In this document: in pieces, positions 5,027 to 48,037 of the stretch
Layout: each line of letters starts with the position of its first letter
Numbering within the stretch: position 1 is the first letter of the stretch
NCBI GenBank assembly: GCA_021773035.1
Contig: JAJFKU010000017.1
Span: forward strand, 62,001-126,000
DNA length: 64,000 nucleotides
Direction of reading: 5' to 3'
Origin: Woeseiaceae bacterium
Lineage (GTDB): Bacteria > Pseudomonadota > Gammaproteobacteria > Steroidobacterales > Woeseiaceae
Program-made: the position numbers and the translations under genes
The notes under the pieces: model-generated
What the model was told of the DNA's origin: nothing
Databases searched by the model: none
Seen by the model: the letters and a program-made list of their open reading frames with translations, nothing else

Positions 5027-5142
5027 CGTGCGGAATCACCTCGGTAAGCTGCCAGCGCGTATTCTAACGTGACTGACGCGTTGGCCACAGCAACGCAGCA
5101 CGCACATTTGCCAGCCGCCACCGCGTAGCGCAAAATAGCTGA

Positions 5143-5943: not shown

Positions 5944-5952
5944 CGGCCTACG

Positions 5953-6345: not shown

Positions 6346-6355
6346 CGCAATTCCA

Positions 6356-29110: not shown

Positions 29111-29560
29111 CTAGAAAGCAATCGATTCGAGATCGGCAGGCATTTCGCCGTCGTCCTCGTCGTCAAGCCACGCGTCGCGCTTCTCGTCCCAGGTTTTGTC
29201 GTCCCACAATTCAAACTTGTTACCCTGCCCGATCAGCATTCCCTGCTTTTCGAGGCTGGCGAATTCACGCAATTCCTTCGAAACGAGAATCCTGCCGTTG
29301 GCATCCATGTCGACCTCGGTCGCATAACCGACCATAATGCGTACTAGTCGACGTGCGGCTTTGTTCATGCTGGGCAGACGCACCAACTTACGCTCGAGCT
29401 CTTCCCAGTCGGGCAGCGGATACACGAGGAGGCAGTGGTCTTTGTCCACAGTCACAATAATCTGGCCATCGCAACGCGCAGACAGCCGCTCCCGATACCG
29501 GGTCGGTATTGCCATGCGCCCCTTGGCGTCCAGGGATACTTTTGTTGCCCCTCTAAACAC
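29111..29560 (-). CDS. mraZ: Transcriptional regulator MraZ
   Basis: The 149-residue protein has two AbrB-like swapped-hairpin halves, each with a DxxGR motif: SLDAKGRMAIP near residue 9 and DMDANGRILVS near residue 87. In E. coli MraZ binds tandem TGGG boxes before its own gene and represses the dcw operon. The start is GTG at 29560, judged by the family opening MFRGAT. Matching boxes and a strong promoter lie upstream. Confidence 0.97.
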   Translation of the reverse strand: MFRGATKVSLDAKGRMAIPTRYRERLSARCDGQIIVTVDKDHCLLVYPLPDWEELERKLVRLPSMNKAARRLVRIMVGYATEVDMDANGRILVSKELREFASLEKQGMLIGQGNKFELWDDKTWDEKRDAWLDDEDDGEMPADLESIAF

Positions 29561-29931: not shown

Positions 29932-32055
29932 TTATGGCTGACTCACCGCGGGCGACAGATCGCCGAGGCGGTAATGGAATCCGAGCCCCAGAATCAGCGA
30001 CCTGTCGTCGTAGGGCGATGCGCCCAGCGACAGGAGTTGCGGCACCGTCGTCACATTGAGCCGCGACCAGTCTGCAGTCTCGAAACGCTGATAACGGAGA
30101 TCGAAACTCATACCCAGCCGCTCCGAACGCCGATAGTTGAGCCTGAGCCTCAGGTAATCGAGTTCCGACCTGAGGTCGGGAAAGCGGTCCGTGCCGGGCT
30201 CCGCGGTATCGACGTCAATCTTTGTCGTCCCGTCGGAACGCCGGTAATCCAGCTGCAAATCCACGTCGCCCGAGATCTCCCGGACACGAATACCCGCCCC
30301 AAGCGTAGTGAAGTCGTCATCATGGGAGGCGTACCAGTCAGCTGCGGCAAACTGCTCGCTGCCGGATTGCTGCGATTGCATCGATTCCACGCCGGCGTTC
30401 AGGTAGAACGAACTGCGCTCCGACACCGACCAGCTGAAATCGGCGGCAACGCCGAACTCATCGCCGGCCGTAATGCCGAGTTGTGAATGCGTGTATTCGT
30501 CATCGGCTACGCGTCCGCTCAGAGATACCGATACGGGCAAATCGGCGGGTGACCAGCTCAGCCGCAGGTCGCCGTAGCGGCGATACCGGTAAGCGAGATT
30601 GTATTTTCTGAGCAGCGGATTCTCACCAAGCGATGCTGCGAAAACCTCGTTGTAGCTATCGATATCGCGCTGCGACGTGCCGCCGCGAACATCGATTTCG
30701 ACGCTTGCTGACGGCCGCCATCTCAAGCGGCCCCAACCGGCCTCCTCTGTCTGGCTCGCGACCTCCTGGAAATCCCTGTCGATCTCCTTGCGATCGTAGC
30801 CGCCGGACAAACGAAGCGAAGCGAACAGGTCGTAGTCGGCGCTCAGCCGCAGCGTTGCGCGCTCGAAGCCATAGGGTGTATTCAACTCGGGATCACCGCT
30901 CAAAACGCTGTCGACAATGACGCGTTCCCACAGATCCTGAGCGGTTTTGTTGTCGCGCTCGTCGAAACGGTAGCTTAGTTTCACGCGCGTCTTGTCCAGC
31001 GGCCTGGACGTCAGCGCGATTGCAATATTCGTCGTATCGATATCGCCATTAAGCGCGGAGCGCGGCAGCGGCTCCGGGGACAGATTGTCGTTCGTCGTAT
31101 AGGCGAGGAAAGCTGTGTCCTGCTCTATGTTGCCGAAACTGGCCGACGCACTCAGGACCGTTCCGTAGGCGGAAAATGCATAAGCTGTAGCCAGGGACAG
31201 CTGTTGAAAACGGCTATCGGGTGCACGCGCCTGCTCGAAGGTACCGGTACCTAGCGGCGGGCTAAAGGAAAACGGCTGCTGCCAGCGAAATCCAGCCGCA
31301 CCGTTCTCAAAGTCGGACAAATACCATCGCAGCGAAACGAAGCCTCTCGCGTCACCGTAGCGCACACCGAAATCAACCTCGTCAGTAACGTAATCGAAAG
31401 GCATCGGCAGCAGGCTCGCACTGGTGAATGACGAGCCGCCGCGAATCTTCAGGCCGTCGGACTCCTGTCGCCGGTAGTCGGCCGAAAAACTGAGTCGCTC
31501 GGACCTGAGATAGCGGCCGCCGATATCGAACACACGGCGGTCGCTGCCGATCGCCCGGTTCTGGAGATTTGCATCGAGTGCCGTGAACCCCGTTGTCTGC
31601 GCAGCCGCCACCCAGCCTGGCGGCAGTGACAGCGTATCGGCGGTGGATTGCACGAAAATAGTAGCAGTTGAATCGAAGCGACGTCGTGGCAATTCCCGGT
31701 AGGCAATCCTGACATCGAACTTCCCGGGACGTCCGCCGCGCACTTCGGCGGCGCGCGAGTCCAGACCGAGGTCCTCCAGCCGCCAGCGCCATCGATAGCT
31801 GTCGTTCGCGTAACGTCCCTGGCCGTCCAGGTTGGCGTATACGCCCTCCTCGTCATAGCCCGTCGCATTGCCGATATAGGCCGAGTCTTCGCTGACGCTG
31901 GTGACACCAACGCTATAGTCGGCCGTGTAGCCGCTCTCGAAGGGGCAATACTCGCACAGCCATTCGCTGGTATCAGCCGCTTGCGAAGAGGCAGCCGGCG
32001 CCAGTACCGCAGCTGCCAGTAATGTAACTACCAGCCAGTTTGCTTTGCACTTCAT
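29932..32055 (-). CDS. mtrB: MtrB/PioB family outer membrane beta-barrel
   Basis: The 707-residue product has a signal peptide (MKCKANWLVVTLLAAAVLAPAA) and, just after cleavage, the CxxC of the family (WLCEYCPF). The rest shows alternating polar/hydrophobic strands ending in LGFHYRLGDL, as in a large barrel of about 26-28 strands. MtrB-type porins enclose the periplasmic decaheme MtrA and hold it in the outer membrane so that electrons pass to MtrC outside. The ATG at 32055 is preceded by GGAGG and replaces a 59-codon upstream extension. It is the last gene of the mtrC-mtrA-mtrB operon, 11 bases after mtrA. Confidence 0.9.
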   Translation of the reverse strand: MKCKANWLVVTLLAAAVLAPAASSQAADTSEWLCEYCPFESGYTADYSVGVTSVSEDSAYIGNATGYDEEGVYANLDGQGRYANDSYRWRWRLEDLGLDSRAAEVRGGRPGKFDVRIAYRELPRRRFDSTATIFVQSTADTLSLPPGWVAAAQTTGFTALDANLQNRAIGSDRRVFDIGGRYLRSERLSFSADYRRQESDGLKIRGGSSFTSASLLPMPFDYVTDEVDFGVRYGDARGFVSLRWYLSDFENGAAGFRWQQPFSFSPPLGTGTFEQARAPDSRFQQLSLATAYAFSAYGTVLSASASFGNIEQDTAFLAYTTNDNLSPEPLPRSALNGDIDTTNIAIALTSRPLDKTRVKLSYRFDERDNKTAQDLWERVIVDSVLSGDPELNTPYGFERATLRLSADYDLFASLRLSGGYDRKEIDRDFQEVASQTEEAGWGRLRWRPSASVEIDVRGGTSQRDIDSYNEVFAASLGENPLLRKYNLAYRYRRYGDLRLSWSPADLPVSVSLSGRVADDEYTHSQLGITAGDEFGVAADFSWSVSERSSFYLNAGVESMQSQQSGSEQFAAADWYASHDDDFTTLGAGIRVREISGDVDLQLDYRRSDGTTKIDVDTAEPGTDRFPDLRSELDYLRLRLNYRRSERLGMSFDLRYQRFETADWSRLNVTTVPQLLSLGASPYDDRSLILGLGFHYRLGDLSPAVSQP

Positions 32056-32066
32056 CACGGCCTCCA

Positions 32067-32987
32067 CTAACGCATCAACTTCGAACCGGACGGATGATTC
32101 GAACCATGCACCTGTGAATGACAGTTCATGCAGCTTTGCCCCAACAGGTACTGTGACGGCAAATCTGCCGCCAAGCCGTCCGTTGTATTGGCGATGCTGG
32201 GGTGTCCCGAGGCCGAATGGCAGCTCTGGCACAGCAACGGGGCACGTTGCGTCAACATACCCGCGTGATTAGACCCGTGGGGTGCATGGCACAATCCGCA
32301 GTCCTCACTGACCGGCGCATGCTCCCAGAGAAACGGTCCGCGCTTCTCGGCATGACACTGCTCGCAGCTTGCATTCAAGGTCTGCTGCGCGAACGCCGTG
32401 GCCGCCTCGTCGCTATGTGCGCTGTGGCAACCGCTGCAATCCATCTTGCCCTGCAGCAACGGATGCGAAAACGCCTTCATCGTTTCGCTGCGCTGTCGTT
32501 GATGGCAATCGAAGCAAACCTCCGCCTGCGTCGAGGTCTGCATGACGGCATCGGCGGGCGCGTGGCTGACGTGACAGTCCGCACAGGCAACTTCGTCGCT
32601 GGGGTGCACGCCGGTATGCCAGCCAAAACCAACGTCGTCTTTGTGACACTCGAGACATATGCCGTTCTGATCTTCCAAGGATGCGACCGGGCCCGAGCCA
32701 AAATGCGGGATAGCGGGCCTTTCCTCACCCCGGCGGACGCGGCCCGAGTGCGCATCGCCCGGCCCGTGGCAGGACTCGCATTGCAGTTGCCCGTGCCCGA
32801 ACGGGCCGCTGGAATCTGACGGTACGGCATGTACGGTTTTGAAAATCGCGAGCGTCACCTCATCGTCATGACAGGACAGGCAGGTATCCGCACCCTTGCG
32901 ACTGTAATCAGTCTCCTGTCCGTCGGCAGACGCCATGGCGACCACAACAAGTGCTATGGCCACGATGACGACTGCAATCCACTTCAC
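32067..32987 (-). CDS. mtrA: Periplasmic decaheme cytochrome MtrA/DmsE family
   Basis: The 306-residue product has a hydrophobic signal sequence (MKWIAVVIVAIALVVVAMASA) and exactly ten CxxCH heme sites: CLSCH, CESCH, CLECH, CADCH, CFDCH, CSGCH, CEQCH, CGLCH, CQSCH and CMNCH. Extra histidines can act as distal ligands. MtrA-type proteins carry electrons through the MtrB barrel; DmsE does the same for extracellular DMSO reductase. Position between mtrC and mtrB favours an MtrCAB conduit. The start codon is GTG. The gap to mtrC is 21 bases. Confidence 0.94.
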   Translation of the reverse strand: MKWIAVVIVAIALVVVAMASADGQETDYSRKGADTCLSCHDDEVTLAIFKTVHAVPSDSSGPFGHGQLQCESCHGPGDAHSGRVRRGEERPAIPHFGSGPVASLEDQNGICLECHKDDVGFGWHTGVHPSDEVACADCHVSHAPADAVMQTSTQAEVCFDCHQRQRSETMKAFSHPLLQGKMDCSGCHSAHSDEAATAFAQQTLNASCEQCHAEKRGPFLWEHAPVSEDCGLCHAPHGSNHAGMLTQRAPLLCQSCHSASGHPSIANTTDGLAADLPSQYLLGQSCMNCHSQVHGSNHPSGSKLMR

Positions 32988-33008
32988 GGTAATCGTCCGC
33001 TTACCGGT

Positions 33009-35234
33009 CTAGTTGAACTGGAATTCGCCGACACCATGCACTTCCTTGACGTCTGACGAGCGTCCCGGTCCATGACAGAGCTGGCAGGTTTCGATACCCG
33101 ATGAAATCAGGCTGCTGTCAGCCGCTTTCGCCGCTGTGAAGTCACCGCCGTTTTGCATCATGTGCTGCTTCGCCAGATCTGTCGTATGACAGGCAGAGCA
33201 GACAGCAGAGTTCGGCGAGATCACGACATCGTCGGTCGGCGACGTCAAATCCGCACCGACGTCGATAGTTGTTGCCAACACTTCCGCCGGGTCCACCGGA
33301 TAGTAACCGCCATCGAGATGACAGCCTTCGCAGTTGTTAAGTCTGCCGGGATACGTGAAATCGAAAACGTGAGTACTGTTGCCGAAACCGCAAGCTTCAT
33401 ACGGCTCACCGCTCACGTCCATTCCGTGCAGGGCATGAATCATGTACTTCATGTCTATCGATACATCATCGGTACCGAGGTCGGTAGCACATTGGCCTGC
33501 ACGACGGTTCACATCCGTTGCGTTCGGGTTGTGGCAGACAACGCAAACTTCCGGATTGTCGGTACGGTTATTGCCGTGCATCGACAACTGGTTGTGGCAA
33601 TCGTCACACTTGGCAATCGCGACGGCGTTGCGCCTTGGCACGGCTGTTGTATCGGTAATGGCCGCATAGGCAACGGCGTTGGTAACGGCGATGCGTTCGA
33701 AGTTGCCATCGACCTCGACGGCCGGGTGACCGTCAATGGTGACCGCGGCGGTGCCCGTCGTGCCCGCCGGAACCGGTGTCGTCGATGCCACGCTGAATAC
33801 ACCGCCCCCTTCGTCTGTCGATGTTCCGCCACAGGCGGTCAACGGGTTCAGGGATACCGGCTGCCCGGGTGCATTGCCGCTTCCGGTATTGGTGTAGTCA
33901 TCCGTGTCCCAGGCGATACTGATCGCCAAACGACTGAGTCCAAACGTACAGGTCGTAAACGCTGTATCCGTGTGGATGTTATAGGGTGCATCGCCGTTCG
34001 TCGGATCCGTTATCGAAAACTGCACGACCGGCAGTTCACCAGGCGCCGTGTTCGCTACGTTAAGAATGTTGAACTCAAATGCTTCGCCAGCCTGCTGCGT
34101 ACCGATAGTATGCGCAATCGCCGTTCGTACTTCACCGCCGTTGACGGTGGCATCGGGGCCGTGGCAATCGACGCATTGCGTGTCATCGGTAAAGGTGAAG
34201 CCGCCCGGATGACCGCCGTTCGCCCAGTCGATGTCATCGTGACACGAGCCGCAGCTCACACGATTGGCGACGAGTTCCCAGTTACTCGCGTCCGGTGTGT
34301 TGGCATCCGAGTCGTCATGGCAGGTCGAGCAATTCCTGACGTCCTGCGGAAACTCGACGGTGGAGTAATCGTGTACCGTGCCGCGAAAGCCGACAACGGT
34401 GTAGCCGTTAACGAGGTCAATGCCGGAGTGAATCTTGTGGATCATGACTTTCATATCCACCGAACCTCCCCAGGGTTCGCTAACCGTATCACCGTCGATC
34501 GACGATGGGTTGTGGCAAGTGACGCAGTACGTGACGTCGGTTCGCGGACCGCCATGAAACTCAAGCACGTCATGACAGGCATTGCAGGTGTCATTGTCGA
34601 CAATGTTACGAGTAAAGGTTGGCGCTCCACCGGTTGGTACAAAATCGAAAATGCCGTTTGACGAAATCGGCGCCTGCCCGCGAATTTCAATACCGAGGCG
34701 GTGAGTGCGGGCTGCGTCGAAGACCGGACCACCGGGATAATCGGTCAATGCCTGCGAAAAAGTGTATTGATACGTTCCGTCATTGTTATCGACGAAGGTG
34801 CCCGCGCTCGCCGTTTCCGTCGTTGCCTGCGCATCGGGAATACCCGCACTGCTGCGTGTGACGTAGGACTGCCACTCGCTGGATTCTCCGCTGGAAAGCG
34901 CAGCGGGCGACAACTGCGACAGTACGAAACGAATGTCACCCGCCGGCAAGCCGACAAGCCCCTGCGTCAGGTCGTTTGTCAGTGTCAACTCCACAACCGG
35001 TGCGCCGCCGCCGGCTGCAACGCTAACGCTCGACACCGCTATATTGATTCTGTCCGCGCTATCGATGGGTATGCCACCACCACCGGTAGCCGGTGGCCCG
35101 GGTGGGCCTGGAGGACCGGCCGGGCCCGTTGGGCCGGCAGTTCCGGCGGCACCATCGTCACCGCTGCAGCCCCACATCAGAAATACCGTAATCACCACCC
35201 CGGCCAGAAAGGCTGGTCTGCTTCGATTCTTCAT
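33009..35234 (-). CDS. mtrC: OmcA/MtrC family decaheme surface lipoprotein cytochrome
   Basis: The 741-residue product has a lipoprotein signal with lipobox LMWGC, so it is likely anchored to the outer membrane. A collagen-like G-x-y run (GAAGTAGPTGPAGPPGPPG) lies at about residues 27-48. A beta-domain comes next, then ten CxxCH sites: CNACH, CVTCH, CSTCH, CGSCH, CVDCH, CDDCH, CVVCH, CEGCH, CSACH and CQLCH. OmcA/MtrC proteins pass electrons between the MtrAB conduit and minerals, flavins or other outside partners. It is the first gene of the mtrCAB operon and divergent from the diheme cytochrome gene. Confidence 0.92.
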   Translation of the reverse strand: MKNRSRPAFLAGVVITVFLMWGCSGDDGAAGTAGPTGPAGPPGPPGPPATGGGGIPIDSADRINIAVSSVSVAAGGGAPVVELTLTNDLTQGLVGLPAGDIRFVLSQLSPAALSSGESSEWQSYVTRSSAGIPDAQATTETASAGTFVDNNDGTYQYTFSQALTDYPGGPVFDAARTHRLGIEIRGQAPISSNGIFDFVPTGGAPTFTRNIVDNDTCNACHDVLEFHGGPRTDVTYCVTCHNPSSIDGDTVSEPWGGSVDMKVMIHKIHSGIDLVNGYTVVGFRGTVHDYSTVEFPQDVRNCSTCHDDSDANTPDASNWELVANRVSCGSCHDDIDWANGGHPGGFTFTDDTQCVDCHGPDATVNGGEVRTAIAHTIGTQQAGEAFEFNILNVANTAPGELPVVQFSITDPTNGDAPYNIHTDTAFTTCTFGLSRLAISIAWDTDDYTNTGSGNAPGQPVSLNPLTACGGTSTDEGGGVFSVASTTPVPAGTTGTAAVTIDGHPAVEVDGNFERIAVTNAVAYAAITDTTAVPRRNAVAIAKCDDCHNQLSMHGNNRTDNPEVCVVCHNPNATDVNRRAGQCATDLGTDDVSIDMKYMIHALHGMDVSGEPYEACGFGNSTHVFDFTYPGRLNNCEGCHLDGGYYPVDPAEVLATTIDVGADLTSPTDDVVISPNSAVCSACHTTDLAKQHMMQNGGDFTAAKAADSSLISSGIETCQLCHGPGRSSDVKEVHGVGEFQFN

Positions 35235-35439
35235 GGCTAGTCCCCGGTTTCGGTAGCCGCTGCGAAACTCCGCGCGGTTCTTTGTTTACGCATTATTTTT
35301 AACAAATCCACCACAGCATTTTTATGCTGGCATGTACCTAAGGATTAGGCGCAGTTTTTGGCGGCTATCCAGTATGGGAAATTGCTGTTAGTAGTGGCAT
35401 TCACGTAACAGGAACCTATTCGCCGCAAGGACTTTCATC
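35235..35439. promoter_or_regulatory. Divergent control region between mtrC and the diheme cytochrome gene
   Basis: This 205-base AT-richer gap must hold the promoters of both electron-transfer operons. Visible elements are a CAGCAT-TTTT-ATGCTG stem-loop (35314-35329) and a TTTGTT/AACAAA inverted pair 14 bases apart (about 35285-35310). I found no good FNR (TTGAT-N4-ATCAA) or CRP (TGTGA-N6-TCACA) site and no promoter good enough to assign. Confidence 0.4.
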
Positions 35440-36048
35440 ATGAAACAATCTGCTCTTCTCGCCTGCCTGCTCGTCACCCTTACGATTGCACCTGCCGGTG
35501 CCGAGGACGTCAACGCCATCGTCGAATCCTGCGCAGACTGCCACGGCGAAAACGGCGTCAGTCAATGGACCGATGTTCCGACAATCGCCGGTGTTGACGC
35601 GTTCGTCGGATCGGAAGCCCTGTACATCTACCGGGATTCAGAAAGGCCGTGCGCCTCCAGCGCCTACCGTCAGGGCGATACTGACAGACCGGAAGCCACA
35701 ATGTGCAAACTCGTCAGCAACTTCAGCGATGACACCATCGACACGATCGCCGAGCACTTTGCCGGCTTGCCCTTCGTTGCAGCAAAGCAGGACTTCGATG
35801 AACAACTCGCTGCTGCCGGCAAAAGAATCCACGACAACAAGTGCAGCCGCTGCCACTCCGACGGCGGCTCAAACCCCGACGACGAGGCCGGCATCCTGGC
35901 GGGTCAATGGACAGGCTATCTGCGAACGACATTTGCAGAATATGCATCCGGCGAACGGGAACAGCTCGGCAAAATGAAAAAGGTAATGGATAGTCTGAGC
36001 GACGATGACACCGAGGCACTCATCAACTACTACGCGAGCCAGCAATGA
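35440..36048 (+). CDS. Periplasmic diheme cytochrome c (c4-like)
   Basis: The 202-residue product has a signal peptide (MKQSALLACLLVTLTIAPAGA) and two CxxCH sites, CADCH near residue 32 and CSRCH near residue 138. It is built as two c-type halves like cytochrome c4 and related soluble electron carriers. Two additional cysteines (RPCASS, TMCKLV) lie between the hemes and could form a disulfide. It could shuttle electrons between the NapC-like quinol dehydrogenase and MtrA, or to an oxidase; this is inferred from neighbours. It overlaps the next gene by 4 bases (ATGA). Confidence 0.85.
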   Translation: MKQSALLACLLVTLTIAPAGAEDVNAIVESCADCHGENGVSQWTDVPTIAGVDAFVGSEALYIYRDSERPCASSAYRQGDTDRPEATMCKLVSNFSDDTIDTIAEHFAGLPFVAAKQDFDEQLAAAGKRIHDNKCSRCHSDGGSNPDDEAGILAGQWTGYLRTTFAEYASGEREQLGKMKKVMDSLSDDDTEALINYYASQQ

Positions 36049-36419
36049 GACCTGACGACGAACAGCAGTCGATGTTGCGCGATTTGTTTGCGGCGATCGA
36101 TAGCAAGGATACCGCCGCATTCCTGGATTTTCTTAGCGAAGACGCACGCTTTCGCTTTGGTTCTGCCCCACCTGCTATCGGTCATGCAGCGATCGGCGCG
36201 GCGGTCGGCGGTTTCTTCGACACCGTGGCCGGCCTTTCACACGACGTGGCCTTATCGGTCGCCGGAGATGGCTTCCTGATCTGCGAAGGTGAAGTTACGT
36301 ATAGACGGCACGACGGCAGCACTGTCACATTACCGTTTGTCGACGTTTTCGAACTCGAAACGGAACGGATCTCGAATTACAAGATATACATGGACATCGG
36401 GCCACTGTACGCCACGTAG
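36045..36419 (+). CDS. NTF2-like (SnoaL-type) small protein
   Basis: The 124-residue protein has the pattern of the NTF2/SnoaL fold: an N-terminal helix (MLRDLFAAIDSKDTAAFLDFL), then strands ending in VDVFELETERISNYKIYMDIGPL. No signal peptide is seen, so it should be cytoplasmic, which is odd between two exported cytochromes. The fold serves many enzymes and ligand-binding roles, and no catalytic residues can be named here. Tight coupling (4-base overlap) with the cytochrome gene suggests a shared job such as cofactor binding or assembly, but this is unproven. Confidence 0.7.
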   Translation: MRPDDEQQSMLRDLFAAIDSKDTAAFLDFLSEDARFRFGSAPPAIGHAAIGAAVGGFFDTVAGLSHDVALSVAGDGFLICEGEVTYRRHDGSTVTLPFVDVFELETERISNYKIYMDIGPLYAT

Positions 36420-36446
36420 CCTGAAGCCGATACCGGAGTCAAAGCA

Positions 36447-37076
36447 ATGGTAGACAATAAGCAGAAACCGCCGTCCAGGTTGTGGCGCCGCCCGTCGAGC
36501 AGGTGGGCGCTCGGAATACCGCTGGGTGCGGTGCTGGCATTCGCACTCGGTGCCGTCGCGCTGGGCACGACCAACTATGTCGTGCATGCAACCAGTTCGA
36601 CAGAGTTCTGCTACTCCTGCCACTCGCACGAGAGCTTCATAAAACCGGAATATGAGGCCTCAAGTCACTTTGCCAACGTGTCGGGCGTTAGGGCCGGCTG
36701 CGCCGATTGCCACTTGCCGCACGACAACTGGTTCGAGCTGATGTGGACCAAGGCTGTCGTATCGCTGGACGCTATCCCGGAATTAGCGGGCAAACTCGAC
36801 ACAGCGGAAAAGTACGAAGCGCATCGAGCCGAAATGGCGCAGGACGTGTGGCGTCAGTTCAAGGACAACGACTCAAAGTTTTGTCGCAGCTGTCACAGTA
36901 TCGACGCGATGCAGCTGGAGGACCAGCATCGTACGGCGGCGAGACGTCACGCAAAGGCCGAGGAAAATGGCGAGACCTGCATAGATTGCCACTACGGCAT
37001 CGTGCACAAGGAACCGGACAACGCGTCTGAGCTTTACGATGCCGTTGCCGCCGAGTATGCCGGCACCGACGACTAG
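36447..37076 (+). CDS. NapC/NirT (CymA-like) tetraheme quinol dehydrogenase
   Basis: The 209-residue product has one N-terminal membrane anchor (about residues 22-45) and four CxxCH sites: CYSCH, CADCH, CRSCH and CIDCH. Length and spacing match short NapC, NrfH and CymA proteins. These oxidise menaquinol or ubiquinol at the inner membrane and pass electrons to periplasmic partners. In Shewanella CymA feeds MtrA and periplasmic fumarate reductase. Here the gene sits in one operon with a diheme cytochrome and frdCAB, and next to mtrCAB, so the same role is likely. Confidence 0.92.
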   Translation: MVDNKQKPPSRLWRRPSSRWALGIPLGAVLAFALGAVALGTTNYVVHATSSTEFCYSCHSHESFIKPEYEASSHFANVSGVRAGCADCHLPHDNWFELMWTKAVVSLDAIPELAGKLDTAEKYEAHRAEMAQDVWRQFKDNDSKFCRSCHSIDAMQLEDQHRTAARRHAKAEENGETCIDCHYGIVHKEPDNASELYDAVAAEYAGTDD

Positions 37077-37081
37077 CCTCC

Positions 37082-37846
37082 ATGCTGCCCGGTCCTGCTC
37101 AACCGGCGCGCACAGAGTCGCGCCGCCAACTGATCTATGAACTACTGAGCGGCGGCAGCGGTCTGCTGTTGGCGCTCTTCATGTGGGGCCACATGGTTCT
37201 GGTCGGAACCATCCTGACCGGCGAGCGCGGGTTCGACTGGCTGGCCACTGCGCTTGAGGACTACTACGTTGCGCAGCCGACGGTGATCGTCATCTTTGCC
37301 CTGTTCCTTCTACATGCCGCGCTTGCCAGCCGCAAGATTCCGGCGCAGCTGAGGGAGAGAAAGACGATCTTGAAACTGGCGCGCGGTCTTGCGGACTCCG
37401 GAAGAGGCAGCGCGTATTCGGCCAGCGAGTTCTCCGTGTTTCGCCCCCACGTCGACTCTCTGCTCTGGATCTGGCAGGTCCGAACCGGCATGGTCGTGCT
37501 CGTTCTTGGCAGTTTCCATATCGTGCTGCTTGGCGTCGACGTATTGACGCCACTGTTCGGTGAGCGTACCGGTATCGAGGCCGTCACCAGCCTCGCCCGC
37601 GTACAGTCGGGCCTGTGGCTGCCCTACGCCGTCCTGCTTGTCTGTGTCGAATTTCATGCCAGCATCGGACTCTACCGGCTCGCGATAAAGTGGGGTGCCG
37701 GCGCGATGCTTAGACGCGAAACGCTACGCGTCATCGAACATATTTTATTGTGGTTCTTCCTGGGACTCGGCACCGTCGTCTTACTCGTGCTGGCCGGAGC
37801 GATTGAGCCACCGCTGCAATTCATCATGCCGGACAGCGGCCCGTGA
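37082..37846 (+). CDS. frdC: Fumarate reductase / succinate dehydrogenase cytochrome b (type B, FrdC)
   Basis: The 254-residue product resembles Wolinella FrdC (256 residues), with five membrane segments. Probable heme b ligands are histidines in GHMVLVG, LLHAAL, SFHIVL and EFHASIG, one per helix as needed for two hemes. The subunit carries electrons between quinone and FrdB in the inner membrane. The order frdC-frdA-frdB is that of Wolinella and Geobacter type B enzymes, unlike the four-subunit SDH usual in gammaproteobacteria. It overlaps frdA by 4 bases (GTGA) and lies 5 bases after the NapC-like gene. Confidence 0.9.
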   Translation: MLPGPAQPARTESRRQLIYELLSGGSGLLLALFMWGHMVLVGTILTGERGFDWLATALEDYYVAQPTVIVIFALFLLHAALASRKIPAQLRERKTILKLARGLADSGRGSAYSASEFSVFRPHVDSLLWIWQVRTGMVVLVLGSFHIVLLGVDVLTPLFGERTGIEAVTSLARVQSGLWLPYAVLLVCVEFHASIGLYRLAIKWGAGAMLRRETLRVIEHILLWFFLGLGTVVLLVLAGAIEPPLQFIMPDSGP

Positions 37847-39786
37847 GCACGCAGTTGAGCAACGTCGATGTACTCGTCATCGGTGGCGGTCTGGCCGGCG
37901 AGCGGGTGGCAATCGAGGCAGCGGCGGCCGGTCACGAGGTTCTGATCCTGTCGCTGGTAACACCGCGACGCAGCCACAGCTGCGCCGCACAGGGCGGTAT
38001 GCAGGCCGCGCTGGGGAACTGCGTCAAGGCGGCAGGCGATAACCCGACGCTGCATTTTCTCGACACGGTGCGCGGCTCCGACTGGGGAGCGGATCAGGAA
38101 GTTGCGAGAATTTTCGCCGAGGAGGCGCCGGCAGCTGTAAGAGAACTTGCCCATTTCGGCGTTCCCTGGACGCGCGTTCGCGGCGGCAAAAACAGCTACT
38201 TCATCAAAGGCGAACGCGTCGAGATCGATGAGGCTGTCGACAATGACGGCCTGATAATGCATCGCGATTTTGGCGGTACGGCGAAATGGCGGGCATGCTA
38301 CGCCGCCGCCGGCACCGGCCACGCCGCTTTGTATGCCGTCGACAGCGAGGTCATTCGCCTCGGCATAAGCGTGCGTGACCGCGTTGAAGCCGTCGAGTTG
38401 ATCCACGACGGCCGGCGCTGCTACGGCGTCGTCGCACGCTGCCTGCGAACGGGCGCGCATTTTTCCATACTGGCCAGGGCGACTGTCATCGCCACCGGCG
38501 GACATGGACGAATCTTCGGCCACTACACGACAAATGCGACCATCAATGAGGGTATGGGCGCCGCGATCGCACTTAATTCCGGTGTCGTGCCGCTCGGCAA
38601 TATGGAGGCGGTACAGTTTCATCCAACAGCGCTGGCACCCAGCGGCATCCTGATCACCGAAGGCTGTCGCGGCGATGGCGGCTACCTGCTCGACCGGCAG
38701 CTACGACGTTTCATGGTCGATGCGGAGCCGGAGAAGCAGGAACTCGCCAGTCGCGACGTCGTGTCCAGGCACATGACGCAGCAGATGCACGACGGCAACG
38801 GCGTAGAGGCCGCGTTTGGCCAGCACCTCTGGCTCGACCTGCGGCACCTGGGCGCCGAACACCTGCAGAGCAAGCTGCGCGAGGTGTTCGATATCTGTCG
38901 CGATTTTGCCGGCATAGACCCGGCGCAGGAGCTGATTCCGGTACGACCGACGCAGCACTATTCGATGGGCGGTATTCGTGTCAACAAAGATGGACAGGCT
39001 TACAATCTTCGCGGCCTGTTTGCGGCCGGTGAAGCCGCCTGCTGGGACATGCACGGCTTCAACCGCCTGGGTGGCAACAGCCTGGCGGAGACGATTGTCG
39101 CCGGCCGTCTGGTCGGCCGCAGCGCCGCCGAATTCGCCACGGGCCACGCGCTCGACGTCAACACAAGACTTGCTGCCGAGACACAGCGCAACGCACAACA
39201 GCGCGCCACCGAGTGGCTGCGACGCACGGGCAACGGACGCAGCGTCTTCGAGATACGCGACGCGATGGCCGAAACAATGATTAACCAGGTCGGAATATTC
39301 CGTGACGGCGGCGGACTGTCGCAGGCAGTGGCGGAACTGGCGGCGCTGCTGCAGGACTGCGAAACAGCGGGACTGAGAAGCAAAGCACCGGGGATGAACC
39401 CGGAATTGACGTTCGCGCTGCGGCTGAAAAACATGCTGCGCCTCGCATTCGTGACGGCGCAAGGTGCCCTCGCCCGCACGGAAAGTCGCGGCGCCCACAG
39501 TCGCAGCGACTTTCCCCTGCGCAACGATGCAGACTGGTTGAATCGAACGCTGGTGCGCTGGGCTGACAACGCCGCGGAACCCAGCTTCAGTTACGAGCCT
39601 GTCGGTCTGCTGGACCTGCCGCCAGGACACCGCGGTTACGGCGGCGATGAACGCATCGAGATGAACACTTCTTTAACTGACTACAACACCGGAGTAGCGG
39701 AACAGCAGCGCGCGCAGGGCCGAAGCGAAACCCGGGATGCTCCGGGCAGCCGCGTCGTCTGGGGAGCCTGGAAGGAACAAATATGA
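37843..39786 (+). CDS. frdA: Fumarate reductase / succinate dehydrogenase flavoprotein
   Basis: The 647-residue flavoprotein begins VDVLVIGGGLAGERVAIEAA (FAD Rossmann motif). It has RSHSCAAQGGMQAA with the His that carries covalent FAD. The catalytic arginine motif is HPTALAPSGILITEGCRGDGG with a central split; Wolinella FrdA has the same TEGCRGDGG. PTQHYSMGGI and RLGGNSLAE are also present. No Tat signal is seen, so the active site faces the cytoplasm. It reduces fumarate to succinate or runs in reverse. The start codon is GTG. Confidence 0.94.
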   Translation: MSTQLSNVDVLVIGGGLAGERVAIEAAAAGHEVLILSLVTPRRSHSCAAQGGMQAALGNCVKAAGDNPTLHFLDTVRGSDWGADQEVARIFAEEAPAAVRELAHFGVPWTRVRGGKNSYFIKGERVEIDEAVDNDGLIMHRDFGGTAKWRACYAAAGTGHAALYAVDSEVIRLGISVRDRVEAVELIHDGRRCYGVVARCLRTGAHFSILARATVIATGGHGRIFGHYTTNATINEGMGAAIALNSGVVPLGNMEAVQFHPTALAPSGILITEGCRGDGGYLLDRQLRRFMVDAEPEKQELASRDVVSRHMTQQMHDGNGVEAAFGQHLWLDLRHLGAEHLQSKLREVFDICRDFAGIDPAQELIPVRPTQHYSMGGIRVNKDGQAYNLRGLFAAGEAACWDMHGFNRLGGNSLAETIVAGRLVGRSAAEFATGHALDVNTRLAAETQRNAQQRATEWLRRTGNGRSVFEIRDAMAETMINQVGIFRDGGGLSQAVAELAALLQDCETAGLRSKAPGMNPELTFALRLKNMLRLAFVTAQGALARTESRGAHSRSDFPLRNDADWLNRTLVRWADNAAEPSFSYEPVGLLDLPPGHRGYGGDERIEMNTSLTDYNTGVAEQQRAQGRSETRDAPGSRVVWGAWKEQI

Positions 39787-40529
39787 CAGCTGATAACGCG
39801 GACACCGGCAGGTCTTTGCACTTCGAGATATTCCGCTACAACGCCGCAGATCCGGACGCCGGACCGACCATGCAGCATTTCTACATCGACGAGACCCCGT
39901 ACATGTCGCTGTTCATCGCGCTTAATCAGATTCGCGAAACACAGGATCCCAGCCTGCAGTTCGACTTTGCCTGCCGATCCGCCGTTTGCGGCTCCTGCGG
40001 AATGATGGTCAACGGCCGCCCGGTGCTTGGCTGTCGTACACTAACCGCTGACCTCCCCGGGCATATTCGACTGCACCCGCTGCCGGTTTTCAAACTCATC
40101 GGCGACCTGTCCGTCGATACCGGCGTATGGTTTCGGGACATGGCCGAGAACACCGGGGCCTGGATGCACACGACGACGCCGTTCGACCCGGACACCCGGG
40201 AGCAGCGCATGGACGACGAGCTCGCGCAGGCCATCTACGAGGGAGACCGCTGTATCGAATGCGGCTGCTGTGTCGCTGCCTGCGGGGCGGCAAACGTAAA
40301 CCCCGATTTCAAGGGACCAGCCGGTCTGAATCGCGTCGCCCGCTTCATGCTGGACCCACGTGACGAGCGCGACGATGCCGACTGGTTCGACATCATATCG
40401 AACCAGGACGGTATCTTTGGCTGCCTCGGCATGATGGCCTGCAGCGACGTTTGCCCGAAACAACTACCGCTGCTTGAGGTGTACGCTTATTTACGTCGCA
40501 AGGCCCTGACGGCACGCCTCACCGAATAG
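39783..40529 (+). CDS. frdB: Fumarate reductase / succinate dehydrogenase iron-sulfur subunit
   Basis: The 248-residue protein has the [2Fe-2S] motif CRSAVCGSCGMMVNG and its distant cysteine in VLGC, the [4Fe-4S] motif CIECGCCVAACG, and the second cluster region CLGMMACSDVCPKQLP. It relays electrons between FAD in FrdA and heme b in FrdC. The ATG overlaps the frdA stop by 4 bases. The stop codon lies 2 bases from the stop of the converging CBS-domain gene. Confidence 0.95.
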   Translation: MTADNADTGRSLHFEIFRYNAADPDAGPTMQHFYIDETPYMSLFIALNQIRETQDPSLQFDFACRSAVCGSCGMMVNGRPVLGCRTLTADLPGHIRLHPLPVFKLIGDLSVDTGVWFRDMAENTGAWMHTTTPFDPDTREQRMDDELAQAIYEGDRCIECGCCVAACGAANVNPDFKGPAGLNRVARFMLDPRDERDDADWFDIISNQDGIFGCLGMMACSDVCPKQLPLLEVYAYLRRKALTARLTE

Positions 40530-40531
40530 AT

Positions 40532-40936
40532 TCAGTGTTTTGCGATCTCCCCGAGCGCCCGCAGTACGTCACGCCGGCTGATCTGACCAACCAGGCGGTT
40601 GTCTTTGGTGACCGGAAAACGTCGAAAACGCGCCGTGATAAACAACTCGGCGGCATCGACGATACTCATGTTCGCATCGACCGTCATCACGTCGGTCACC
40701 ATCAGGTCGGAAACCGGGCCACCCGGTTCACCATGGTAGCCCGCCGCCAGCACCAGCTGCATGCAGTCAAACTCCGACAGCATGCCCACGAGGTTGCCAT
40801 GATCGTCGACCACAGGCGCTCCGGCGATGCGATGCTCAACCAGTTCGTGCACCGCATCGAGGACATCGGTATCGGGAGAAAACGTCACCAGCCTTCCCGA
40901 CATATAGTCTTTTACCAGTCCAGGTTTAGTTGGCAT
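40532..40936 (-). CDS. CBS domain pair protein
   Basis: The 134-residue protein is made of two CBS motifs: VKDYMSGRLVTFSPDTDVLDA onward with APVVDDHGNLVGMLSEFD, and VTDVMTVDANMSIVDA with FPVTKDNRLVGQISRRDVLRAL. CBS pairs bind adenine nucleotides and act as energy sensors. No output domain is fused. It ends the nqr operon, 11 bases after nqrM, so a link to respiratory control is possible. The start at 40936 has GGAGGG ahead and replaces a long upstream extension that runs over nqrM in another frame. Confidence 0.9.
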   Translation of the reverse strand: MPTKPGLVKDYMSGRLVTFSPDTDVLDAVHELVEHRIAGAPVVDDHGNLVGMLSEFDCMQLVLAAGYHGEPGGPVSDLMVTDVMTVDANMSIVDAAELFITARFRRFPVTKDNRLVGQISRRDVLRALGEIAKH

Positions 40937-40947
40937 AAGCCCTCCAC

Positions 40948-41121
40948 TCAACTGCCATCGCTGCTCTTGCAGCGGCCACTGCAGAGCTCGCAACCGCGTC
41001 CGTTCAGTCCACCGCAGCTGCCCTTTATCGGCGCGCGACCCGCTATCACCCCGATGCCCATTGCCGCAATAAGCACCGCGATAACAAGGAAGCTCAGCGC
41101 GATCGTAATCAGCAGATTCAT
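40948..41121 (-). CDS. nqrM: (Na+)-NQR maturation factor NqrM
   Basis: A 57-residue frame encodes one membrane segment (LLITIALSFLVIAVLIAAMGIGVI), then GRAPIKGSCGGLNG and cysteines in CELCSGRC. This pattern (RxPIKGSCGGL plus a Cys cluster) is that of NqrM (DUF539), which helps insert the iron centre of Na+-NQR. The ATG overlaps the apbE stop by 4 bases (ATGA), and CBS follows. Position after nqrF-apbE is the standard one. Its small size makes it easy to miss. Confidence 0.93.
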   Translation of the reverse strand: MNLLITIALSFLVIAVLIAAMGIGVIAGRAPIKGSCGGLNGRGCELCSGRCKSSDGS

Positions 41122-42146
41122 TGTTGAGCCACCATTGTCGTAAACCGTTTTGTTGCACGCTCCTCGATACCGTCGTCGACGCGTAGCAGGAAGAATGCGG
41201 CGATGCCCTCACGCTCGGCGTACTCAAGACCTTCATCCGGCCCAAGTACCAGCAGGGCAGTGGCCATGGCATCGGCGAAAACCGCTGAGTCGGCAACTAC
41301 GGTTACGGACGCACCATCGTGCTCGGCCGGTCGACCTGTGCGCGGATCGATCATGTGCGAATAGTGGCGACCCTCGAACTCGAAATAGTTGCGGTAGTCT
41401 CCGGATGTCGCCACGGCAACATCGCTGACAGCGATAACAGAGCGCACCGAGCGATCGGCAAAACTCGGCGCTTCAATACCAATCGCCCAGGCCCTGTTGC
41501 TGGCATTTCTACCGCGTACGCGCAGCTCGCCGCCTATCTCTACCATGTAGTCACTGATCTGTTCTGCGTCCAGCAGGGCAGCGACCTGGTCCACGGCATA
41601 GCCTTTCGCCAGCGCTGACAGGTCCACGTAAAGAGCAGCAGTCTGTTTCTGCAATGCGGGCACGGTGCAGTCCGCAGTCAGGTAGCGATAGCCCACCGCT
41701 GCCGATACGCCGCCAAGCGCTGCAGGGGATGGCGGAACCGTCGTCGTACCGTCGGGACCAAAGCCCCAGAGGTTCACGAGCGGGCCCACGGTAACATCGA
41801 ACGCGCCGCCGGTTAGTTCGCTGACCGCCAATGCGTTTTCAACGACCGCGCAAAGCTCTGCCGATACCTCGAAAGGAGCCGTGCTCCGGGCCGCATTAAA
41901 CTGCGAAAGCTCGGAGTCGGGTAAATAAGTCGACATGCCCGCGTTGATCGACTTGAGCCGCTCGTCAATAGCCACCTGCAACGCGGCGTCGGCGTGCCCT
42001 GCATGCGCAGCGCCGATCTTGACCGTGTAACTGGTACCCATCGTGGCGCCGGAGAGCTCATACAGCGGTGCACTGCCGGAACCGTCTGCACAGGCAACCA
42101 GCAGCAGCGGCAGCAACCCTGTTCGCACGATAGTCTGCATCGTCAT
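41118..42146 (-). CDS. apbE: FAD:protein FMN transferase ApbE
   Basis: The 342-residue lipoprotein has a signal with lipobox LLVAC, so it faces the periplasm. Family motifs are GATMGTSYTVKI, INAGMSTYLPDSELSQFN, FDVTVGPLVNLWGFGP, DLSALAKGYAVDQVA, EIGGELRVRG and HMIDPRTGRPA. ApbE cleaves FAD and attaches FMN to threonines of NqrB and NqrC. It lies 6 bases after nqrF in the nqr operon. Confidence 0.95.
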   Translation of the reverse strand: MTMQTIVRTGLLPLLLVACADGSGSAPLYELSGATMGTSYTVKIGAAHAGHADAALQVAIDERLKSINAGMSTYLPDSELSQFNAARSTAPFEVSAELCAVVENALAVSELTGGAFDVTVGPLVNLWGFGPDGTTTVPPSPAALGGVSAAVGYRYLTADCTVPALQKQTAALYVDLSALAKGYAVDQVAALLDAEQISDYMVEIGGELRVRGRNASNRAWAIGIEAPSFADRSVRSVIAVSDVAVATSGDYRNYFEFEGRHYSHMIDPRTGRPAEHDGASVTVVADSAVFADAMATALLVLGPDEGLEYAEREGIAAFFLLRVDDGIEERATKRFTTMVAQQ

Positions 42147-42152
42147 AATCGA

Positions 42153-43397
42153 TTAAGCACCGAAATCATCGAGGAAGATAGTGTCGCGCGTTACGCCGAG
42201 ATCCTCCAGCATCGCAATAACGGCGGTATTCATCATCGGCGGACCGCAAATGTAGTACTCGCAGTCCTCCGGCGCGGAATGGTCATTAAGGTACTCAGCC
42301 AGCAGCACCTTGTGTATGAAACCGACATAGCCATCCCAGTCATCTTCGCTACGCGGTTCCGACAGAGCCAGGTGCCAGCTGAAATTGTCGTTCTCCGCCG
42401 CGAGCTGATCGAATTCGCCGACATAGAATGCCTCGCGCAGGCTGCGCGCACCGTACCAGAAGCTGATGCGCCGTTTCGAATGAAGTCGTTTCAACTGATC
42501 GAAAATGTGTGCACGCATCGGTGCCATTCCCGCTCCGCCGCCAATGAAAATCATCTCGTTGTCGGTATCTCTGGCGAAAAAGTCCCCGAACGGCCCGGAA
42601 ACCGTGACGCGGTCGCCCGCTTTGAGGCCGAAGATAAACGAAGAGATGATACCGGGTGGTACTTTGGCGCCAGCGCCCGGCGGCGGTGTCGCGATACGAA
42701 CGTTCAGTTTGATCATGCCACGCTCAAGCGGGAAGTTCGCCATTGAGTACGCTCGCGATGTCACCGACCTGACATGTGACTCGTAGCGCCACAGCTTGTA
42801 ACGGTCCCACTCGTCACGAAAGCGCTCGTCGATGTCGAAATCGGTAAATCGCAGATCATGCGGCGGGCACTCTATCTGCACATAACCACCGGCGCGAAAA
42901 TCCATTTCCTCGCCCTCCGGCAGGCGCAACACGAGTTCCTTGATAAAACTGGATACAGAGCGATTGGACACTACCTCACAATCGTATTTGCGGACACCGA
43001 ACACTTCATCGGGAACCTGGATGCGCATCTCCTGCTTGACGGTCACCTGACACGACAAACGAACGTGTTCGGCCGCCTCGCGCTTGTTGATGAGTGAAGT
43101 CTCGGTCGGCAGTATTGCACCGCCGCCCTCATACACCTTGACTCGGCACTGACCACAACTGCCGCCGCCCGCACACGCCGAGGGAACGAAAATTCCGTGC
43201 TCATCGAGTCCCTGCAACAGTTTGCTGCCAACCGGGATCGCTACCTCCCGGTCGCCGTTGACCAGCACCGATACGCTACCCATGGAAACCAGCTTCGCGC
43301 GCGCCACGAGAATGACGAATACCAGCAACAGAATAATCGCGGTGAACAGCGCGATACCGAGCCCTACCTCGAACAAAATGGAAGACGACGGGTTCAA
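42153..43397 (-). CDS. nqrF: Na+-NQR subunit F (NADH-oxidising)
   Basis: The 414-residue protein has one N-terminal membrane segment, a [2Fe-2S] ferredoxin domain ([16 protein letters not shown] and LSCQV), an FAD domain ([11 protein letters not shown]) and an NAD domain ([19 protein letters not shown], ending DDFGA). It takes electrons from NADH into the sodium pump. The start is TTG overlapping the nqrE stop (TTGA). The alignment with Vibrio NqrF from memory begins a few residues later, so the exact start is uncertain. Confidence 0.97.
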
Positions 43398-44002
43398 AGC
43401 TGTATCCCCGACAGCCCCATGAAGCCGAGCGACATCAGGCCGACAATAATGAACGTAATACCCAGCCCCTGCAGCCCGTTGGGTACATCGCTGTAACGCA
43501 GCTTCTCACGAATTCCGGCCAGTGCTATCAGCGCAATGGCCCAGCCCGCACCGCTGCCGACACCGTAAACCACGCTTTCCGAAAAACCGTACTGCCGCTC
43601 GACCATGAACAGCGTGCCGCCCAGAATCGCACAGTTCACCGTTATCAACGGCAGGAAAATGCCGAGCGCGTTGTAGAGCTTCGGAAAGTAGCGGTCCAGC
43701 GTCATTTCGAGAATTTGTACCAGCGCGGCGATGACGCCGATGTAGCTGACCAGCCCGAGAAAACTCAGATCGACCTCCGGCAGTCCCGCCCAGCTCAAGG
43801 CTCCTGCCTTGAGCAGAAACTCGTTGATCAGGTAGTTGACCGGTACGGTAATCGTCTGCACGGCCACGACCGCAAGACCCAGGCCAATCGCCGTATCCAC
43901 GCGCTTCGAGACGGCAAGAAACGTACACATGCCGAGGAAGAAAGTCAGCGCAAGATTCTCGACGAACGCGGCTTTAACAAAGAGGTTGATATAGGCGTCC
44001 AT
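43394..44002 (-). CDS. nqrE: Na+-NQR subunit E
   Basis: The 202-residue membrane protein has six segments and conserved cysteines in [15 protein letters not shown] and TVNCAILGG, which hold the intramembrane iron centre with NqrD. The ending [14 protein letters not shown] matches NqrE. ATG at 44002 (TGATG with nqrD) is preferred to a GTG one codon earlier. Confidence 0.96.
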
Positions 44003-44661
44003 CACAACACCTCGGTGCGGTGGACTTTGTGGATCTGGTAGTCGGGATGCTCAGCCTGCTTTGGCCGCAGCGTTCGGATAAGCCAGATGAGCAGGCCAAT
44101 GATGAAGAAGGCACTCGGCGGCAACAGCATCATACCGTTCGCCTCGTACCAGCCACCGTTGCCGGTCAACGGCAATATCTCATAACCCAGCAGCGTGCCG
44201 GCACCGAACAATTCGCGGGCGATCGCAACGATGATCAGTACCAGGCTGTAGCCGAGACCATTGCCCAGGCCGTCGAGGAAACTCATCCCGACACCGTGCT
44301 TCATCGCATAGGCTTCGGCGCGGCCGAGAATAATGCAGTTCGTGATGATGAGACCCACGAACACCGACAACTGTTTGCTGGTTTCGAAGGCGTAGGCCTT
44401 GAGCAGCTGATCCACGACGATAACGAAAGACGCGATAATCGTCATCTGCACAATGATGCGGATATTATTCGGGATATGGTGACGAATACTGCTGATCGCC
44501 GCGCTCGATAACATGGCGACGCTGGTCATGGCTATGCACATCAACAACGCCGGCAGCAATGCCGTTGTCACTGCCAGTGCGGAACAGATACCCAATACCT
44601 GCAACGTGACCGGATTGTTGTCCACCAGCGGATCGATCAGGACCTTGCGCGCATCAGCCAT
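44002..44661 (-). CDS. nqrD: Na+-NQR subunit D
   Basis: The 219-residue membrane protein begins [20 protein letters not shown] and has six segments. Cysteines in [12 protein letters not shown] and [18 protein letters not shown] match those that bind iron with NqrE. The open frame extends 29 codons upstream, but the family starts at 44661, overlapping nqrC by 8 bases. Confidence 0.96.
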
Positions 44662-45454
44662 CGTTTGCAGCCTCCTCTTTGAGCCTGGCCAGGTAAGGAC
44701 CGAAGCCGTGCGATCCGGTCCAATAGCGGAGCAGATCGGAGACACCACGTCCGGTCAGCGTCGCGCCGGCCAGGCCATCGACCTGATGACTGTCATCCGC
44801 TGGCGCCTGGCCACGGACAACTTCGATACGAAGTTCGCCAGCCGCATCGAGCAGTGCCTTGCCGCTCCATTGCGCACGCCAGTCCGGTTTGTCTATCTGA
44901 TCCCCGAGCCCCGGAGTCTCGGCATGTTCGTAGAAGCGCAGGCCCCGAATCGTGTTGGCATCGCGTTCCAGCGCCAGGTAGCCGTACATCGTCGACCACA
45001 ATCCGGAGCCGTAGACCGGCAGGATGACCTGCGAGATACCATCGGCATTGCGAACCAGGTAAACCTGAGCGTGAAGCGCTCGACGCCGGATACCGCCAAT
45101 ATCCAGATCCGCCGGCACCGCGATGCTCGACGCCGGGTCTTTGGCGGCAGCAATTGCGTCGAAGTCGTTGACGTCGGGGCTGTCCGCGTAGTCGCCGCTC
45201 GCCAGCTCCACCAGCCGCAATTCGATATTCTCGAACGATTCGTCAATGGCGATGCCGGGCTCATAAAGTCCGGCGACCTCGAGAACGATTTTTTGCCGAT
45301 ACAACTCCTCGTTACGAGTCTGTTGCGGCTTCAGTACCACAGCCGTCGCCGACACCAGGATGGAACAGAAAAGACTGATGCCGATCGCAACAATCAGCGT
45401 ATTCGATATGCTGTCGCGAGACCGTGACGGCTTTTTTTGTTTAGCGTCAGCCAC
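44654..45454 (-). CDS. nqrC: Na+-NQR subunit C (FMN-binding)
   Basis: The 266-residue protein has one N-terminal membrane segment and a periplasmic FMN-binding domain. The flavin attachment motif reads [13 protein letters not shown], in which the usual Ser before GAT is Ala; the Thr that carries FMN is kept. It ends with [13 protein letters not shown]. It passes electrons inside the sodium pump. The start is GTG, overlapping nqrB by 8 bases. Confidence 0.94.
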
Positions 45455-48001: not shown

Positions 48002-48037
48002 GCGAATTCGCGCGCCTCCGTCCTGCTCCGCGTGTAT

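Follow-up and report, generated by a model that had tools for sequence, protein, structure and literature searches.

The stretch of DNA analysed here (64,000 nucleotides of contig JAJFKU010000017.1 from a Woeseiaceae bacterium, called the window throughout) carries, at positions 29932-40529, the genes of an MtrCAB-type outer membrane conduit, divergent from a run of genes for a PdsA-like diheme cytochrome, a SnoaL-like protein, a tetrahaem NapC/CymA-like protein and the fumarate reductase subunits FrdC, FrdA and FrdB. We lean, with moderate confidence, towards a model in which this locus is a quinol-fed respiratory module, with one quinol pool that has both an outlet to the outside of the cell and an outlet to fumarate. 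The NapC-like protein would draw electrons from membrane quinol, and the PdsA-like diheme shuttle would relay them from there through MtrA, MtrB and MtrC to acceptors outside the cell. FrdCAB, encoded in what is probably the same transcription unit, would draw on the same pool and reduce fumarate to succinate inside. The model builds on the identity of the genes, on key residues, and on gene order and its conservation.

The preliminary description of this DNA had pointed to ten CxxCH motifs in each of two adjacent genes and to a barrel with the CxxC of MtrB, and both observations are borne out: mtrC and mtrA encode ten motifs each, and mtrB has a single CxxC close to its N-terminus. All three neighbouring genes score over the curated cut-offs of their families (Table 1), identifying an outer membrane conduit of decahaem MtrC, decahaem MtrA and the MtrB barrel, and the set is complete; beside it are encoded a shuttle for the periplasm and a quinol cytochrome of the inner membrane. 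MtrA (residues 24-306, E 4e-75) and MtrB (residues 21-695, E 4e-68) match 6r2q_A and 6r2q_B of the solved complex over almost their whole length, and the best PDB match of MtrC is MtrF (3pmq_A, E 2e-66). As judged by eye, the N-terminus of MtrC is lipobox-like, and the likelier start of mtrB is the ATG at 32052 with its signal-peptide-like stretch, not the open reading frame start at 32232, which overlaps mtrA. The family scores of MtrC, MtrA, MtrB, FrdA, FrdB and the NapC-like protein are far beyond chance. The conduit varies among sister loci. Extra mtrC-like or pdsA-like paralogues occur in L040 (genome G020), L041 (G025), L047 (G012) and L044 (G013), and in L062 (G028) mtrA and mtrB adjoin pdsA-like and frdCAB with no mtrC match genome-wide, the surface cytochrome being absent or unrecognised.

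The right arm was described earlier as a diheme cytochrome, a tetrahaem NapC-like protein and frdCAB; all are present as stated, but the SnoaL-like gene between the two cytochrome genes, which is kept in many sister loci, had been overlooked. The diheme cytochrome matches the PdsA model over its full length without reaching the cut-off of 330 bits, so that we call it PdsA-like only. The next cytochrome is a tetrahaem membrane anchor protein of the NapC/NirT family, with four CxxCH motifs and a PF03264 score well over the cut-off. This supports the name CymA-like as to family. The models give no support for CymA proper, as none for CymA produced a match at E 0.01, and the NapC and TorC equivalog models matched below cut-off.

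That the fumarate reductase is of the Wolinella type has held up. FrdA and FrdB exceed the cut-offs of their models, and FrdC, although below that of NF010072 (122.7 bits versus 187), is a single membrane subunit with the four histidines and two glutamates that mark a type B quinol:fumarate reductase. Its His37/78/146/192 and Glu59 and Glu190 align onto His44/93/143/182 and Glu66 and Glu180 of Wolinella FrdC, which we take to be the haem ligands and the quinol/proton glutamates, respectively. The columns of the four histidines and Glu59 are conserved in 19/19 aligned FrdC sequences and that of Glu190 in 17/19, with Ala in L069 and L070, which belong to another family. Among PDB chains, FrdA matches 5xmj_A with 766.7 bits, Wolinella 2bs2_A with 682.4 bits and E. 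coli succinate dehydrogenase 1nek_A with 372.1 bits, and is, by sequence, closer to quinol:fumarate reductases than to the E. coli enzyme.

These features bear on an alternative that we consider unlikely, namely that FrdCAB is a succinate:quinone reductase and that electrons from succinate pass via ubiquinone or a low-potential quinone to the NapC-like protein, the PdsA-like protein, MtrCAB and the outside. It is disfavoured by the best scores of FrdA and FrdB being on fumarate-reductase models and by the retention of Glu59 and Glu190 as in the Wolinella menaquinol:fumarate reductase. A separate SdhA-like gene elsewhere in the genome (C8, 353.9 bits, plus one weaker match), adjoined by an SdhB-like open reading frame as judged by eye, argues in the same direction, since FrdCAB need not then be the sole complex II. 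An Frd that shares its operon with the outlet would, on the other hand, fit equally well with a donor enzyme and with a competing outlet, and the quinone genes considered below also favour this alternative.

Every gene of the cluster is present with an open reading frame, and the genes are closely packed. Spacers of 21 bp (mtrC/mtrA) and 14 bp (mtrA/mtrB, if mtrB starts at 32052) are found on the minus strand; on the plus strand, pdsA/snoaL, frdC/frdA and frdA/frdB overlap by 4 bp each, and the remaining two junctions are gaps of 27 and 5 bp. We infer that the right arm, from the pdsA-like gene to frdB, forms a single transcript. The divergent region between the arms contains one promoter-like site (35299-35328, plus strand).

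The physical linkage of conduit and frd genes, remarked on for this locus in the preliminary description, is conserved in the genus. Our sample comprised 60 genomes including the source genome, 37 from the same genus and 23 from outside. MtrC was over cut-off in 26 of them (22/37 within the genus, 4/23 outside), and FrdC reached at least 300 bits in 22 of the 37 genus genomes. Within the genus, 18 genomes have both, 4 only MtrC, 4 only FrdC and 11 neither (Fisher p 0.0017, which is too small because the genomes are related). Of 23 genus loci examined, 22 were testable for the gene before frdC (L066 begins at frdC), and in 22/22 this gene encodes a membrane quinol cytochrome, a NapC type in 3 loci including the window and a 5-haem protein (H5) in 19; in L056 and L059, both counted, a gap of about 2 kb separates it from frdC. 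The cytochrome is swapped between the NapC type and a pair of 5-haem and 11-haem proteins (H5/H11). H5 matches NapC/NirT weakly, and a cytochrome b561 domain is present in H11, which has about 11 haems; the pair may resemble Geobacter ImcH and CbcL in architecture. In L041 (14628-18051) and L038 (2801-7560), 11-haem and 19-haem cytochromes c with a C-terminal cytochrome b561-like domain, together with a 5-haem membrane protein, replace the NapC-like gene. None of these neighbours was found in four loci from other families (L067-L070), one of which has only about 1 kb of upstream sequence.

A wider set of 80 FrdB loci was also examined; the two counts are not independent, as several of the 80 lie on the same contigs as genus loci. 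An open reading frame with at least four CxxCH motifs is present in 28 of the 80; 27 of these come from records labelled Woeseiaceae, Gammaproteobacteria, Proteobacteria or Chromatiales and one from Pseudodesulfovibrio (L190), where the gene lies 15 kb along. MtrA, MtrB or MtrC matched in 9/80 within the flanks examined, a count that excludes a 24% match in L171 and is limited by short contigs. In L170 the order is rearranged, with mtrCAB followed by frdCAB on one strand, and the linkage is retained. Mapped on a quickly built FrdA tree with 78 rows, the label "linked to extracellular electron transfer (EET)" (28 rows including the window; L149 counted by its H5 match, L154 omitted as too short, L190 and loci cut at frdC assigned to the other class) requires 3 changes, as compared to a mean of 22.9 for shuffled labels, and 0/500 shuffles were as low. 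The NapC and H5 labels (6 and 21 rows) need 4 changes on the same tree. That frdCAB is kept while the quinol cytochrome is exchanged favours a working link over chance adjacency.

Several observations weigh against the model of a shared quinol pool. No FNR-like box with at most one mismatch was found in the divergent region (35235-35439), and regulation by FNR, which we had considered, was dropped. The genes mtrC and frdC are separable, since in the genus 4/22 MtrC genomes lack a strong FrdC and 4/22 FrdC genomes lack MtrC over cut-off. In genome G010, mtrCAB-pdsA-snoaL-napC occupies the same site but frdCAB is missing between napC and CBS-apbE-nqr, and close relatives of FrdCAB in other Gammaproteobacteria and in Myxococcota have no multihaem neighbour in the flanks examined. 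The latter two findings would suit adjacency without joint function, frdCAB being a passenger beside mtrCAB in a hot spot of redox genes near nqr. We regard this as quite unlikely, given the linkage in all testable genus loci despite cytochrome exchange and the rearrangement in L170, and given the tight gene overlaps in the window.

The remaining difficulties concern the quinone. The fumarate reductase had been called menaquinone-linked, which the genomes do not support as it stands: MqnA was found in 0/60, and MenD and MenB were over cut-off in the same 7/60 genomes (365.2-445.7 and 415.8-472.8 bits), only one of which, G030, is among the 37 of the genus. The source genome, 99.99% complete, has no MenD or MenB over cut-off (best scores 78.8 bits against 244.2 and 134.7 against 342.7) and no MqnA match. 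In a scan of 30 of its 31 PF08241 matches, the families listed (25 of 35) did not include RquA, no genome-wide search with an RquA model having been made. The RquA of L144 scores 29 bits on PF08241 (298.8 on NF038261), so that a similar protein in the source genome would probably have been listed, and tblastn with this RquA in 237 sequences, the 31st PF08241 match included, gave L144 and otherwise just two weak matches, of which one was UbiG. The source genome is therefore probably without RquA. UbiG and UbiE are present in it, and from the genes tested only ubiquinone is expected. NapC/NirT proteins are able to work with ubiquinone. With ubiquinone alone, whose midpoint potential of +90 mV lies above the +30 mV of fumarate (PMC4014512, PMC3032769), quinol-driven fumarate reduction is uphill. 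Were ubiquinone the sole quinone, FrdCAB would instead feed electrons from succinate to the outlet, as the alternative set out above has it.

For the model of a shared pool with a fumarate outlet, these gene contents mean that no known route could supply the pool with menaquinone. According to a published survey (PMC11707229), an ancestor of Pseudomonadota lost menaquinone, and some lineages regained low-potential quinones. As a low-potential quinone, the strongest candidate would be the product of an orphan MenA-like prenyltransferase, acting on a naphthoate precursor that is scavenged or of unknown origin. We put forward, tentatively and as something on the unlikely side, that the Woeseiaceae hub runs on a low-potential quinone without known synthesis, that the orphan MenA prenylates naphthoate from neighbours or from an unknown route, and that the same quinone is shared by NQR, the NapC-like protein and FrdCAB. 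Exogenous naphthoate reportedly serves outside electron transfer in Lactiplantibacillus.

The orphan MenA-like gene lies about 7.5 kb from the frd/mtr cluster. Its product retains both Asp motifs of the prenyltransferase family and scores 106.7 bits on TIGR00751 (cut-off 102.15; the match initially spanned 48146-48931), 146.3 on NF004751 (cut-off 264) and 106.5 on PF01040, with other MenA models below cut-off. Orphan MenA proteins are 58-72% identical among genus members and 28-35% identical to men-linked MenA. Within the region 46655-49027 of the window, the gene opens the nqr operon, an arrangement that is conserved in the genus despite the absent menD: the orphan lies within 400 bp of nqrA in 26/28 cases examined (including G051 from another family, and G035 via a 93-base nqrA fragment). 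A MenA-family match of at least 100 bits is present in 29/37 genus genomes, of which 26 have MtrC or FrdC, versus 0/8 of the rest (p 4e-6). Since the same 29 include all 28 genomes with nqrA over cut-off, location explains part of this association, and we rejected the orphan MenA as a simple EET marker, as it tracks nqrA equally well (28/1/0/8 versus 26/3/0/8 for mtr/frd).

Among 296 members of the order, a MenA-family gene occurs in 52/55 genomes with FrdC (at least 190 bits, two weak FrdC genomes left out) versus 49/241 without (p 8e-26), or, counted by genus, in 11/11 versus 17/57 (p 1.4e-5); kinship inflates both p values. Of the 52, 40 have the orphan and 12 the classical kind only, and the misses are G067, G151 and G300. 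One case of the pairing looks independent to judge from its distribution, namely G068, which has FrdC and the orphan MenA in a family whose two other examined members (G040, G054) matched neither. Against a dedicated role of MenA with FrdC count the 49 genomes with a MenA-family gene but no FrdC, and G216 and G176, which carry both kinds. Mutual exclusivity, with classical MenA replacing the orphan, fits G030 (menD and men-linked MenA, no orphan before nqrA) but is not strict in view of G216 and G176. We also set aside NQR as a reporter of the quinone, as the two helix-III glycines of NqrB (135-136) are present but conserved across NqrB according to the literature. In L144, from a gammaproteobacterial metagenome-assembled genome, rquA lies directly upstream of a type B frdCAB (2147-6552), possibly a rhodoquinol:fumarate reductase operon, with an orphan-type MenA 4 kb beyond frdB; rquA precedes frdC in no other locus examined.

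The direction of electron flow cannot be read from the sequence, and the outward flow that we propose may be compared with known systems. Shewanella has a homologous conduit, and its quinol cytochrome feeds both the outside and fumarate (PMC3032769). Fumarate is reduced in Shewanella by the soluble periplasmic FccA, whereas here this would be done by a membrane complex whose active site probably faces the cytoplasm. Flow could also be inward, from minerals, Fe(II) or an electrode through MtrCAB and the NapC-like protein to the quinone pool and fumarate. In Shewanella, an electrode drives fumarate reduction in this manner, the path being MtrCAB, CymA and the pool of menaquinone (PMC3032769), and Baker et al. 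(2022; PMC8805035) suggest both directions for Group 4 betaproteobacteria, where frdABCD adjoins mtrCAB as frdCAB does here. Group 4 loci, as described there, have a four-subunit frdABCD and mtoC/mtoD-type neighbours, whereas this locus has a three-subunit, dihaem type B enzyme and pdsA-like and napC-like genes. Its family matches include no neighbour of the MtoC/MtoD or cyc2 type, and we think inward flow very unlikely.

The mtrCAB/pdsA/cymA clusters of Vibrio and Aeromonas (Group 2) and of Group 3 Gammaproteobacteria (PMC8805035) likewise encode the conduit, a diheme shuttle and a NapC-family protein together. The description of these clusters there reports no type B frdCAB alongside them in Gammaproteobacteria, whereas here frdCAB stands in one same-strand run with the pdsA-like and cymA-like genes. 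Wolinella succinogenes FrdCAB (PDB 1qlb, 2bs2) is homologous in all three subunits, with its haem ligands, Glu66 and Glu180 conserved here; the differences are a host in which no known menaquinone pathway was found and an operon that also holds EET cytochromes. In Woeseiaceae, mtrCAB was reported in 2024-2025 (PMC12175321, PMC11442690), while PMC8443593 covers FrdA along with iron reduction; these metagenome studies name mtrCAB or MtrB, and FrdA, and in their accounts of these genes mention neither a single cluster nor a quinone gap. The earlier view that the combination is uncommon outside Shewanella-like bacteria is thus only partly right, since mtrCAB/pdsA/cymA, frdABCD-mtrCAB and Woeseiaceae mtrCAB were already published. 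In the literature covered (subscription papers and supplementary figures lay outside its scope), we came across no description of Woeseiaceae mtrCAB together with type B frdCAB, and none of the gap in quinone synthesis. While the parts are known, the gene comparisons go further in placing frdC behind a membrane quinol cytochrome in 22/22 testable loci while the type of cytochrome is exchanged.

Woeseiales are reported to rank with the most abundant groups in marine sediments (PMC7082342, PMC8443593). If their respiration to the outside and to fumarate draws on a single pool, they could connect fermentation with metal reduction in sands that alternate between oxic and anoxic conditions. A low-potential quinone, if real, would point to a new naphthoquinone route or to quinone sharing among sediment bacteria.

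Table 1. Features of the window, with scores on family models
Feature	Position	Strand	Evidence
mraZ	29111-29560		
mtrB, outer-membrane beta-barrel sheath	29932-32052	-	TIGR03509 365.9 bits (cut-off 240.05); PF11854 E 8.7e-122
mtrA, periplasmic decahaem cytochrome in barrel	32067-32987	-	10 CxxCH; TIGR03508 261.4 bits (cut-off 192.2)
mtrC, surface decahaem cytochrome	33009-35234	-	10 CxxCH; TIGR03507 506.9 bits (cut-off 209.3)
Divergent intergenic region mtrC/pdsA-like	35235-35439	.	205 bp; probable shared promoter region
pdsA-like, periplasmic diheme cytochrome	35440-36048	+	2 CxxCH; best NCBIfam match NF049874 (PdsA) 182.9 bits
SnoaL-like small protein	36045-36419	+	PF12680 55.6 bits; overlaps pdsA-like by 4 bp
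NapC/NirT-family tetrahaem quinol dehydrogenase (CymA-like)	36447-37076	+	4 CxxCH; PF03264 203.9 bits (cut-off 24.1)
frdC, dihaem cytochrome b, type B	37082-37846	+	Aligns with Wolinella FrdC 2bs2_C, E 5e-20
frdA, fumarate reductase flavoprotein	37843-39786	+	NF006383 933.1 bits (cut-off 663)
frdB, iron-sulfur subunit	39783-40529	+	NF010071 360.9 bits (cut-off 264)
CBS protein	40532-40978		Follows nqr operon
apbE	41118-42146		Follows nqr operon; NF007774 293.4 bits (below cut-off 498)
nqrF to nqrA operon (Na+-NQR)	42153-48001	-	nqrF TIGR01941 640.2 bits; nqrA NF003759 660.2 bits
NqrB	45447-46658	-	Within nqr operon
Orphan MenA-like UbiA-family prenyltransferase	48038-49027	-	First gene before nqrA, 36 bp from it

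The cluster is flanked by mraZ on one side and the nqr operon on the other, and mraZ is found at the same position in sister locus L033 (G015).

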